Source: Flexistipes sp. (GTDB taxonomy: Bacteria; Chrysiogenota; Deferribacteres; Deferribacterales; Flexistipitaceae). Taken from it: a stretch of 64,000 bases of DNA. A program made the translations under genes and the position numbers. How positions within the stretch are numbered: the first letter of the stretch is position 1; every line of letters begins with the position of its first letter. The notes beneath the pieces were generated by a model. It ran no database searches, was not told the DNA's origin, and saw only the letters and a program-made list of their open reading frames with translations. The DNA lies in NCBI RefSeq assembly GCF_036172515.1, contig NZ_JAXKVW010000001.1, positions 1-64,000 on the forward strand, given 5' to 3'. This document shows, in pieces, positions 27,068 through 64,000 of the stretch.

Positions 27068-27124
27068 GAGACAGCTTTTTTAGAATTTTGCAATGTACTT
27101 AATTTACCTGACCCCATTTTTTAA

Positions 27125-27481
27125 TTATAAGTCTTTCTCAATTATTTTGATTTCATCGTCGGTCAGGTCATAAAGATCGTATATCATTCTCTCGATTTCA
27201 TGTTCAAGGTCTGTTGTATCGGCTTTTGGGTTATTTTTCTTAATATCAATAATATTGTTTGCAATGGTTTCAAATATATTTTGCTTTTCTTCTGATACTT
27301 CAGGAATATGTATTTGATTTATATACTGAATTTTAAACTCATAGCCCTTTCCCATTTTAATACCAAGTTGAGAAAACTGCCAAAGGAAAGTAGCTGAATT
27401 AAAATAAGATAACAAGTATTTCAGGTTAATATTTTGGTCGCTTTTTGTCAGCAAGTTCGCTTTATCATTTTTATCATACAA
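27125..27481 (-). pseudogene. C-terminal fragment of an Eco57I/TaqI-type DNA methylase
   Basis: 118 codons without a catalytic domain. The end, IYDLYDLTDDEIKIIEKDL, is identical to the end of the full methylase at 30210-33692, and the preceding ~20 residues differ only at a few positions (ADTTDLEHEIER against TDTTELEHEIDK). The middle matches the target-recognition tail (SYFNSATFLWQFSQLG...INQIHIPEV). It is a remnant or spare specificity tail left by rearrangement, downstream of a second truncated methylase. It might be a donor for specificity change by recombination; that is speculative. Confidence 0.7.
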
Positions 27482-29939: not shown

Positions 29940-30209
29940 CCCGCCATCTGTCCGGGTAACAGTCAACTACAAATAAGCCGCTAGGTTTCCTTCACACTGA
30001 GAAAATAAGTCACCTTGTTTCACTTTTTAATGGTAATTATAAACGGTATTGCGACCTTTGCACAGGAAATCTTTCCGTTATTTTCTGCGCAAAGGTCTCG
30101 AAATATGAGTTTATAAATATATCCACAAAACAATAGTGTTTGATGTCCAAAAAAATTTATTTGTAAACAAACAGATGCTTTATTTTCGCAAAGTACGCAA
30201 GATGCGTGA

Positions 30210-33200
30210 TTATAAGTCCTTCTCGATGATTTTGATTTCATCGTCGGTCAGGTCATAAAGATCATATATCATTTTGTCGATTTCATGCTCAAGCTCTGTT
30301 GTATCGGTTTTTGGGTTATTTTTCTTTTTATTTAGAATATTTTTAACGGTACTTTTTATATTTTTTACAAAACTTGCATTTGCTGCATCAATGGCTGGTA
30401 TTGGTATATTTTCTACATAAATAGAAAACATTCTCACAGCCTTTTCTCCCAACTGAACTGATAACGTTCGATAATACCAATCTATAAGGTTTGAATTTAA
30501 TAATCCTAATAAGTACTTTAGCTCAGTATTATAGCACATAAAATAAACAGTATTGTTAAAATAGATATTTTCTTCTGCGAGGGCAAAAGTCAGTTTTTGA
30601 CAAATATCATTGTATACGATTTTTTCTTTTTCAAATTCTTCAATATATGCACAGTTTCTCAAGTTATAAGAAGTTACACCTTTATCCTGCCTTTTGGCTA
30701 TTTTCGGATAAAATTTATCAAGATGATTTTTGATTGCCGGATAATTATTAATATTTATTGGCGGTATAAATCCATCTTTTGATTTATAACCATTGTGGCT
30801 GTTTATCAGCCAACGGTCGGCGAAGTCCGCATGGTAGCGTTTTATATCTCTGCCCCTGAGAAGAGGTTTTATGATTTCAGCCGACTTAGGGTCTTCGGCA
30901 ATAAGGCGGTCTTTTGTTTGACCATCTATTACAAATGCTTCATTACAGCCAGTTAGTACCCCTCGATAAATATTAATATCCCAATCTTTTAAAGGTGTAC
31001 CTATGTTTTCAATTTTCTCCTTTAATTTCGACTCCACAGGGTTTGATATAATCCAGGGGGCACCTGTTTTAAAAAGGTCGGTTAAGAATCCTTTTGTATT
31101 GACATATTCTTTAAAGTTTTCATTCCGATAATCCCCGCCAAACGTTACAGCATAGCATTTATGATTATTTTCCCCTCTCTGGAAAGTTAATATATTTGTA
31201 TCCACTGTGGCAGATTTGAAAACTTTTACCCCGGCTAAATCTATTAAAAGCTTAGGATTGGCTTTATTTGATAGAAATCTTCTGAGTTTTTTACCATAAT
31301 CAGCCCTCATCCACTTGTTTGATGTGATATAAGTTAAGTGGCCGCCTTTTTTTAGCAGCTGCCAGCCTCTTTCATAAAAAATAACATAAATATCACCTGT
31401 CCGTGCAAAAGTTTCATACCCCAGTTTGGAAAGTGCATTTGCAAGTTTGCCGGCATTCTTCTGCAACTGAATATACGGCGGATTGCCAATTAAAATATCA
31501 AAACCACCTTTTACACCGAACATCCACTCCGGATGAAACCAATCCGCTGAAACATTCTGATCAAAAATATCATACTCAGCCACTTTGTTGGCAAAATCAG
31601 CAGAAGTGCCAAATTTCATAAAATAACTTTTTAAATCATTTCTCAGTTTTATATCTTTTTCTCTAAGTCTTTTTTTCTCAGTTCTTGTTTTTGCATTGAA
31701 ATAACGATGCCTTATATCCTTTAATTTATCCTCTATTTCCTCGACTTCTTTTGTATAAAATATATGCTCCTGATCAAGCGGTATAAGGGTATTAGCAGCC
31801 ACAAATTTCGTTTCAAGATTTGGCAAAGCCAGTATACCCCTGTTTTCCCTAGAATCATCTTTTTCTTCATCTACAATTAAGGATATGAAAAACCTGAGTT
31901 TGGCTATTTGTACTGCTATGGGCTGAATGTCTACTCCATATATGCAATTCTCAATAAGATACAACTTTCTTGCATAATCAGGGGAGTTGATATTTAAATC
32001 AAATACTTCATTTATTACTTTAAGTTGTTCTTCCCTTTCACTCTTATCATTTTCTGTTTTAAATGTATTCTCTGTTTCCCTCAATGCCTTTTTATACTGC
32101 AAATCCTGCCATAGTTTATTGTCGTGATCAATTTTTTGCAGCATATGTACCAGTTTGTGTAGTATCCCCATGGGAAAAGCCCCGGAACCGCATGCCGGAT
32201 CAATTATTTTTATGCTGTCAATACTGTTGATTAATGTTTCTTTTTCCTCTTTCTTCAACTCAACCTTTTCGTCAGAATATGATATTAAAAGCTTAATTTT
32301 ATCTTCATTAATTTCAGGCAATTTTGTTTTTAAGTATTCTGTTAAACTCTCGTCCACCATAAAATCAACTATCTCACGTGGAGTATAATAACTTCCGGTT
32401 TCTTTTCTGGCTGTAGTAGATGTTTCAGGATTAAAAGAGGCAAGAAGATTTTCAAAAACTTTGCCCAAAAGCTCCGGATCAAGGGCAATTTCCTGATCTA
32501 CAGGTGTGTTTTCATCAGTAACAAAATTGTAGTTGTTTAAAATGTCAAACAAACCTCTTACTTGTTTGTCTTTTCCTATTCCATATTTGCTTAAATCCAC
32601 TTTCTTTTCTTCTTTGTTAAAAAAAAGAAAGTCGGGTATTTGTGCTGTTTTCTTTGGATTGCGGGAAAAGCCATCTATGTAGACAACTCTTCCATTCTCA
32701 TCCTCTTTGTCCAAACAGTCAAACAGTCCGCCATTTAAAAAAGGTATCTCACTGAACAAACTTAGTGCACTTTCTTCAGAAATAAGAAACTTGTCGTTGT
32801 ACCTATAAAGATTTTTGACTCCGTATTCACTCCTGTTTTCATGGAAATTACCGTTATTGGCAAATTTTCTCTCACTCATATTACGATTCAGAGTACCAAA
32901 AAATAAATTCTGGAGAATAGCGTTATAATAATTGGTTGAATCTTTAGTCTTATTGAAGTCTTTAACTATCTTTTCGATAAACTTACTATCAAAAAGATTA
33001 CTGGATACTAAATCTTTCTCTTTTAAAAACCATACAAAAATTATTCTTGTAATAAGCCTGATCATATTCTGGGCATTACGTATCTCTTTATCTTTCTCAT
33101 CATTTTCGTGAAATTTGTAATCATCTGGAAAAATGACACTATCCAATGACCAAAAATACCAATTAGCAATTTCATCGTAAAACTGTTTTGTAACCTTTTC

Positions 33201-51827: not shown

Positions 51828-51898
51828 AAATTATATCCGGCCAAATATTCAAAAAATCTCTTAAATATTGCAAAGATATTATGCTATTATTAATAAAT

Positions 51899-52387
51899 CA
51901 AGTTTCGCACTTCATTTTGTATAGCATTCGCTTTTAGCGAATATATAGAATGTTAAACATATTTACCAGTCTAAAAGACTGTTGGCACCCTCCCATTTTT
52001 TAGAGCTATGAAAATACGCAGATATTGTTAGTACATAGATAGAGATCCCTCGGCTTCGCTCGGGATGACATAAATTGTTGTCATTTCGAACAAAGTGAGA
52101 AATCTCTGCCATATAAAACGACATAACGAATAAATATACAACTGTGTTTAATATTGGGGTATCTTTATGAGCGAAAACCCCGATATTAAGATAAAGTATT
52201 GTCAAATAGCATAAGTACAAAAATTTTGGGAGGTTGCTAATAAAAGACTGGTGCTAGCCATAGGCATCCTTGCGAAACCCTGTGGAAACAGGGTTGTGGC
52301 AATCTCAAAACAAGAAAAATAGTGAGATTGCTTCGTCGTTTTCACTCCTCGCAAAGACGTGAAAACAGTGTAAGTGCGAAACTTGAA
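51899..52387. mobile_element. MITE copy, interrupted by a second element
   Basis: The ends CAAGTTTCGCACTT (51899-51912) and AAGTGCGAAACTTG (52372-52385) form perfect 14-bp inverted repeats. Possible target duplications are TAATAAAT (left) and TAATAAGT (right, after two extra bases). When the 261-bp insert and one 8-bp duplication are removed, 218 bp remain, essentially the size of the 63.7-kb copy and collinear with its reverse complement. It carries no ORF. Its right end lies ~30 bp before the PilZ gene. Confidence 0.85.
51981..52241. mobile_element. Second small element nested in the MITE
   Basis: 261 bp flanked by the perfect direct repeat AAAAGACT (51973-51980 and 52242-52249). The ends are imperfect inverted repeats: GTTGGCACCCTCCCA at the left and, read inwards, ATTAGCAACCTCCCA at the right. 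Internally it contains the AGAGATCCCTCGGCTTCGCTCG repeat also seen at 62.15 kb and an inverted ATTGGGGTATC / GATATT pair. No ORF for a transposase. Confidence 0.8.
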
Positions 52388-52417
52388 TAATAAGTAATAA
52401 TTTTCACAGGAAGGAAT

Positions 52418-62087: not shown

Positions 62088-62124
62088 ATCGTTCAACGTT
62101 GGGAACCAATTCCAATAACGAATA

Positions 62125-62340
62125 AGTAGAGATGCAGAAATTATTGCATATAGATAGAGATCCCTCGGCTTCGCTCGCCCTGTTAAATATCAGCTTCACT
62201 GATTGCCTGTGGCATTTAACGGGGCGAGGGATGACTTTTTGTCATCTCGACCGGAACGGAGTGGAGCGGAGAGATCTCTACTGTTATATTGCAAAGAGAC
62301 CTCTCGGCTTCGCTCGAGGTGACAATTACATACATACTGT
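62125..62340. repeat. Composite dispersed repeat with a nested palindromic unit
   Basis: The AGAGATCCCTCGGCTTCGCTCG repeat (also in the nested element at 52.05 kb) is split at GCTCG/GGATGAC by a ~50-bp palindromic unit with arms CGCCCTGTTAAAT and ATTTAACGGGGCG (62176-62226, one mismatch). A second half-copy (GACCTCTCGGCTTCGCTCGA) follows near 62300. No ORF. Confidence 0.65.
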
Positions 62341-62466
62341 CTATCAGCGATAGCTAAATAGAATGTAAACATATTTACCAGTCTAAAAGACTGGTGCTAG
62401 CCATAGGCATCCTTGCGAAACCCTGTGAAACAGGGTTTCGCAAGGACACAGAGAAGTGCGAAACTT
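62341..62466. repeat. Rearranged, incomplete MITE copy
   Basis: It shares with the 63.7- and 51.9-kb copies the blocks ATATTTACCAGTCTAAAAGA, CTGGTGCTAGCCATAGGCAT, CCTTGCGAAACCCTGTG and the terminal AAGTGCGAAACTT. The left terminal repeat and the CAATCTC half are missing, and the GCGAAACCCTG / CAGGGTTTCGC palindrome is complete. It fits a recombination between palindrome arms. Confidence 0.7.
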
Positions 62467-62518
62467 TAATTAAATACTTAATTTTTTGAAAAAAACATGC
62501 TTTTCCGATATCTTTTTC

Positions 62519-63644: not shown

Positions 63645-63709
63645 AACATGAAAATTATTACAAATAATCATGCAAGTCAAAGCTTTTCAAAAACAGAGAT
63701 TAGTAATTA

Positions 63710-63927
63710 CACAAGTTTCGCACTTGCACTTATTACACGTCTTTGCGAGGAGTGGTAACGACGAAGCAATCTCTCTTTTTTATCATTTTGAGATTGCCAC
63801 AACCCTGTTTCACAGGGTTTCGCAAGGATGCCTATGGCTAGCACCAGTCTTTTAGACTGGTAAATATGTTTAACATTCTATATATTCGCTAAAAGCGAAT
63901 GCTAGACACAGAGAAGTGCGAAACTTG
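63710..63927. mobile_element. MITE, complete copy with 8-bp target duplication
   Basis: The 14-bp inverted ends CAAGTTTCGCACTT (63712-63725) and AAGTGCGAAACTTG (63914-63927) are perfect. The direct repeat AGTAATTA flanks the element (63702-63709 and 63928-63935). Inside are a CCTGTTTCACAGG hairpin, GTCTTTTAGAC and ATTCGCTAAAAGCGAAT palindromes, and no ORF. It lies just upstream of the ybaK-like gene and occupies most of 63681-64000; the remainder shows no gene. Confidence 0.85.
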
Positions 63928-64000
63928 AGTAATTAGTTGATTGGTATAATTATTATTGGTTTATCGGTTGAGTGGTAATAGGTATTCCTTAGCACTTAGC

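Follow-up and report, generated by a model that had tools for sequence, protein, structure and literature searches.

A MITE nested within a MITE in Flexistipes: two families of short mobile elements and their candidate IS4-type partners in related genomes

The window analysed here, a 64,000-nucleotide stretch that forms the start of contig C1 in a 2.47-Mb Flexistipes assembly of 31 contigs, contains at 51.9 kb a MITE (MITE A) that is split by a second, unrelated MITE (MITE B). Two nested target duplications, along with intact copies of A that lack B, support two independent transpositions, A first and then B into A, as the only simple explanation of this locus. From the nested pair one can read the exact ends of two MITE families and the order in which they arrived. 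The papers searched contain no earlier description of either family: none deals with Flexistipes and MITE together, and queries with the end sequence and a palindrome recovered unrelated papers only. Comparison with the ISs of related genomes further indicates that A and B were very probably moved in trans by two different DDE transposases of the IS4 family. The nesting of one MITE in another is as such an ordinary event, and the nested copy probably has no function beyond that of an intergenic insertion. Less ordinary, and of moderate interest, are the interchangeable modules common to both families, the candidate parents, and the change of the elements in place.

The nested locus at 51.9 kb

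The features of this locus, and of an uninterrupted copy of A at 63.7 kb, are the following:

51897..52387, + strand: MITE A (copy 1) with MITE B nested inside it; CGTTTTG-type ends, ATCAAGTTTCGCACTT...AAGTGCGAAACTTGAA; of the two hairpin modules it has ML but not MR
51891..51896: TAATAA, target duplication to the left of A copy 1, register as in other A copies
52388..52393: TAATAA, target duplication to the right of A copy 1, register as in other A copies
51982..52240, + strand: MITE B, 259 bp, with TIRs TTGGCACCCTCCCA / TTAGCAACCTCCCA
51972..51981: TAAAAGACTG, target duplication to the left of B, read from the sequence
52241..52250: TAAAAGACTG, target duplication to the right of B, read from the sequence
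63710..63929, - strand: intact MITE A copy 2, uninterrupted, 216 bp from CAAG to CTTG; two other Flexistipes genomes lack it at the corresponding orthologous site
63704..63709: TAATTA, target duplication to the left of A copy 2
63930..63935: TAATTA, target duplication to the right of A copy 2

The layout of 51891-52393 is TAATAA / AT CAAGTTTCGCACTT ... TAAAAGACTG / TTGGCACCCTCCCA ... TGGGAGGTTGCTAA / TAAAAGACTG ... AAGTGCGAAACTTG AA / TAATAA. A sequence-only reading of this DNA had already recognised one MITE split by another, and the intact A copies indeed supply the uninterrupted site. That reading held the 51.9-kb copy to be collinear with the reverse complement of the 63.7-kb copy, and alignment confirms this for 63712-63927, the insert apart. 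Its figure of 218 bp for the restored element also stands, being the 487-bp span from CAAG to CTTG less the 259 bp of B and one 10-bp repeat; the same span in the 63.7-kb copy is 216 bp. The insert likewise has its own inverted ends, TTGGCACCCTCCCA/TTAGCAACCTCCCA, as described. Its size had been given as 261 bp, which we correct to 259 bp (51982-52240), and the 8-bp duplication AAAAGACT assigned to it is here part of an exact repeat of 10 bp, TAAAAGACTG. A has a target duplication too, as had been said of both elements; it is TAATAA here, and the ends of A reach 2 bp past CAAG/CTTG; the locus thus defines exact ends of two families, as had been maintained, yet at boundaries differing by 1-2 bp from those first given. 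Two transposition events had been taken as proven; the nested duplications speak for them, although "proves" is too strong a word for the only simple explanation.

In the intact A copy at 63710-63929, read in reverse orientation, the target of B is uninterrupted (CCAGTCTTTTAGACTGG). The insertion point of B is therefore the loop of a small hairpin in A, CCAGTC TAAAA GACTGG. The window copy of B has only 2 mismatches in 259 positions to the copy at C9:104345-104603, so that the two are closely related and the insertion of B into A is probably recent.

Two dispersed families and their candidate partners

A genome-wide count by end sequences, proposed as a check with the sequence-only reading, found TIR-bounded copies of A at 46 places and 12 TIR-bounded copies of B in the DNA of this genome examined, all without a transposase gene, which agrees with the proposal of two non-autonomous dispersed families. 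Copies of A are mostly 130-280 bp long, with size classes of about 140, 191, 218 and 269 bp, and those of B measure 259-551 bp. The TIR of A occurs 100 times with at most one mismatch, as against 0 occurrences of a reversed control. Exact flanking duplications of at least 6 bp accompany 28 of the 43 A copies taken into this comparison, which is beyond chance, 500 shuffles of the flank pairs having given a mean of 2.6 and a maximum of 8; they are mostly of 6-7 bp, with an AT-rich target and a common register. In family B, exact duplications flank 11 of the 12 intact copies; they measure 7-10 bp, 8 bp being the commonest. Each family thus has the hallmarks of a MITE, being short, TIR-bounded, multi-copy, associated with target duplication and devoid of a transposase gene. 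The left flanks of many B copies contain (G/A)TCAA, some 3 bp away from the duplication on its outer side, and B may therefore prefer palindromic targets.

Empty sites, another suggested check, could be found for the 63.7-kb copy of A. Alignment of its flank gives 92% with F. sinusarabici and 88% with a third Flexistipes, G002, the empty site being GATTAGTAATTATTTGGCTGG in the former and TTTAGTAATTTGTTTAGTAG in the latter, and the occupied site AGTAATTACA[A]AGTAATTAG; the duplication TAATTA is read outside the NTCAAG/CTTGAN element ends. On the simplest reading of these sequences, this copy was inserted after the split from F. sinusarabici. For the 51.9-kb copy no empty site could be demonstrated in F. 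sinusarabici or G002 because the downstream neighbourhood is not conserved in these two relatives; the upstream gene alone has a match (in G002), and the region beyond is unrelated. A 218-bp copy (L003) was dropped as an orthologous pair, since its left flank did not align.

The sequence-only reading had also called for a full-length IS with matching ends, and one per family was found in relatives, none in this assembly. For A it is a 1526-bp IS present in 14 complete copies in Denitrovibrio acetiphilus, which has in common with A a 13-bp terminal sequence, TCAAGTTTCGCAC, with CT..AG outer ends. CTCAAGTTTCGCA is found at the ends in 14/14 of these copies (one mismatch in 12 bp allowed), and exact duplications, at AT-rich sites, are of 7 bp in 8/14 and of 6 bp in 1/14. 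The transposase scores 335 bits against the model NF049925 IS4_4 (cut-off 250) and contains the YREK motif, with Y343 in YGQRWAVEVLFKDAK at 343. According to De Palmenaer et al. (2008, PMC2266710), elements of the ISPepr1 subgroup of the IS4 family are 1500-1600 bp long, have ends of the form YT-AA-YTT---A and insert at AT-rich targets with repeats of 7-8 bp. In its ends, its size, its repeats and AT-rich targets, and its IS4-type transposase with YREK, the D. acetiphilus IS agrees with these elements; it belongs to the IS4 family and has ISPepr1-type features. MITE A itself is like ISPepr1 in its ends and its 6-7 bp duplications, but unlike it lacks a transposase, the ends alone being in common. 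Outside the order, a transposase 43% identical to that of D. acetiphilus has a TIR copy adjoining its end. When genomes were scanned for further kin of the A-type transposase, one more contig came up, from a Denitrovibrio MAG.

The candidate partner of B is an IS4-like element of 1435 bp, of which F. sinusarabici has 7 intact copies with B-type ends and 8-10-bp duplications; the TIR is common to MITE B and this IS for about 20 bp, TTGGCACCCTCCCATTTTTT. Its 429-aa frame encodes a DDE-type protein with YREK, YYHRWGVEECYRFEK at 300, and in these two features and its direct repeats of about 10 bp it is like the IS4 family. It is unlike the listed IS4 subgroups in its TIR, TTGGCACCCTCCCA as against CA, CT or CAT ends, and in that its transposase lies under every curated IS4 cut-off and passes that of no NCBIfam model (best NF033591, 57.7/152 bits; PF01609, 22.7/23 bits). 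Since only about 20 bp of end sequence is in common, MITE B is no simple internal deletion of this IS.

Several other loci came to light in these comparisons. F. sinusarabici has a second IS (L194, L195) with a 473-aa frame 41% identical to B's partner and ends, CTGGCGTCACCCCATTTT, whose pattern resembles that of B's ends. In the same genome, two A-type ends at 1346346-1347605 (L131) enclose 1256 bp with a ParE-family toxin gene (PF05016), a stretch that may not be one element because there is no clean duplication, and at 971222-976210 (L143) A ends stand convergent about 5 kb apart. Within the window, 27124-27259 and 30209-30344 form a 136-nt direct repeat of 89% identity with a spacing of 3085 bp.

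Hairpin modules and turnover of the interiors

MITE A is modular, with a 140-bp core to which a 77-bp hairpin, ML, may be added near one end and a 52-bp hairpin, MR, near the opposite end. Copies with neither, either or both are found, across several end-sequence subfamilies. MITE B has constant ends, and its centre gains ML and MR-type modules as in A. In alignments of A copies and of B copies, from which the junctions were read for a part of the loci, ML takes the place of one base, in MITE A the A of GTCATTGCG and in MITE B the A of GTCATTTCG. As a single strand each element folds into a branched hairpin (MITE A, z = -9.0; MITE B, z = -3.6), and a search of Rfam gave a single sub-threshold match at chance level.

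Insertions with the same flanks in this genome and F. sinusarabici differ in module content, measuring (here/F. sinusarabici) 139/192, 191/142, 268/360, 140/362 and 160/39 bp, and one B insertion is 336 bp here vs about 474 bp there; some are unchanged (185 vs 186 bp). The interiors therefore turn over in place. Six orthologous pairs with differing modules (L017, L082, L002, L019, L039 and L079 here; L233, L264, L234, L251, L201 and L149 in F. sinusarabici) differ by segments of roughly 52, 77, 90 bp or more that were gained, lost or exchanged. Such copies, found in a complete reference genome, could show how palindromic modules are gained, lost and exchanged, a process that is poorly understood.

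The conservative reading is that this turnover reflects gene conversion among copies, including the chimeras L251 and window 62123-62468. More speculatively, and in our estimate with rather less than an even chance, the modules might themselves be cassettes, mobile or exchangeable at a second level, which take the same palindrome spot in two unrelated MITE families and turn over after insertion by a site-specific enzyme, template switching or gene conversion. A RAYT might likewise be the mover of the modules, but the RAYT-like genes of this genome have no flanking modules.

At window 62123-62468 lies a chimeric array, in which a B-type interior without B ends leads via ML to the right end of A, GTGCGAAACTTTAA, and which points to recombination between A and B. 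Likewise, L193 of F. sinusarabici (2454196-2454761) is a B element whose interior holds the right half and right end of A, by nesting or recombination in the reverse sense (A into B). Contigs C6, C20, C30 and C31 (L107, L105, L104 and L101) start with the 3' portion of a transposase of IS110-like type, KLIRQAFGVLKSGKPYDPDHANNLTLVAKNA, and continue with MITE B-type palindromes, which suggests that an IS110 element targets these palindromes, its family being read from the peptide alone.

Probable mobilisation in trans and comparison with known systems

A arrived first, and we propose that it did so by cut-and-paste through an ISPepr1-type IS4 transposase acting on YTCAAGTTTCGCA ends and duplicating an AT-rich target of 6-7 bp. 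B inserted later, into the hairpin loop inside A, and would have been moved by the transposase of the 1.43-kb IS4-like element, acting on TTGGCACCCTCCCA ends and duplicating 8-10 bp. The D. acetiphilus and F. sinusarabici ISs, or close kin once resident in Flexistipes, would have been the source of these enzymes and would subsequently have been lost from this Flexistipes lineage. Ends, duplication length and target preference are the grounds on which we infer the identity of the enzymes; the interiors of the MITEs do not look like deletion derivatives of the ISs. With full-length IS4-type matches in neighbouring genera, mobilisation in trans is directly testable.

An autonomous partner with matching ends in the same genome is common, though not obligatory, for MITEs, and neither A nor B has one here. 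Searches with NF049925 and the transposase found no homolog of the A-type enzyme in three Flexistipes genomes, that of this strain being the 31-contig draft; likewise, the B-type enzyme has no homolog in this draft, though it is present in F. sinusarabici. With neither transposase found in this assembly, both MITEs look orphaned. No gene-bearing element lies between A ends around 12 unpaired TIRs of this genome, and the contig ends examined hold IS110-like and IS3-like sequence and neither autonomous IS; fragmented assemblies can conceal multi-copy ISs, which bears on the absence of the transposases. It counts against our proposal that the transposase is absent, yet at least one A insertion postdates the split from F. 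sinusarabici, so that a recent source is required. The same facts would suit transposases of this genome that are unrelated to the two ISs, or hidden in gaps, as the movers of A and B. This we hold to be improbable, as the ends, duplication length and target preference of A and B match the two ISs from close relatives, and the stretches of this genome examined contain no TIR-flanked gene-bearing element.

Recombination is real in these families, as seen from the differing interiors at orthologous loci and the chimeras at window 62123-62468 and L193, and an A copy might have taken its interior by gene conversion from one that contained B. The insert is nevertheless delimited exactly by the TIRs of B, outside which 10 bp of A sequence are perfectly duplicated, and the complete B copy that is 257/259 identical has a different duplication, AAAAATTCT, making such an origin of the nested structure very improbable. 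The REP-like palindromes in the interiors of A and B, and the RAYT-like Y1 genes of this genome (C14:4971, C18:36235, C4:44541 and C25:1176), could suggest REP/REPIN-type palindromes moved by a RAYT (Y1) enzyme and not a DDE transposase, which we judge the most far-fetched of these alternatives. Cut-and-paste by DDE enzymes typically leaves target duplications of 6-10 bp next to the TIRs, and to our knowledge Y1 enzymes make none of this kind; the duplications of A and B hence argue against RAYT for the whole elements. Further, a Y1 transposase gene flanked by the repeats, the mark of REP/REPIN systems, is not seen, the RAYT-like genes having no flanking A or B modules, one 15-nt match apart. 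Mobilisation in trans by two IS4-family transposases is the reading that we prefer.

BOX and ERIC are modular elements. Like these and other prokaryotic MITEs, A and B are short, TIR-bounded, palindromic, intergenic and without a transposase gene, and have optional internal segments; unlike them, the elements described here form two unrelated families with common interchangeable modules and differ in content at orthologous places. Among the prokaryotic MITEs reviewed in PMC10969869, QMITE2 of Coxiella is cited as a target of IS1111, and REPs are similarly targets of IS110 (PMC1525189). The nested locus is like these pairs in that an element is inserted in MITE palindromes, and IS110-like copies lie in the same palindromes here. 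It is unlike them in that what was inserted is another MITE, one of IS4 type, with a generic duplicated target.
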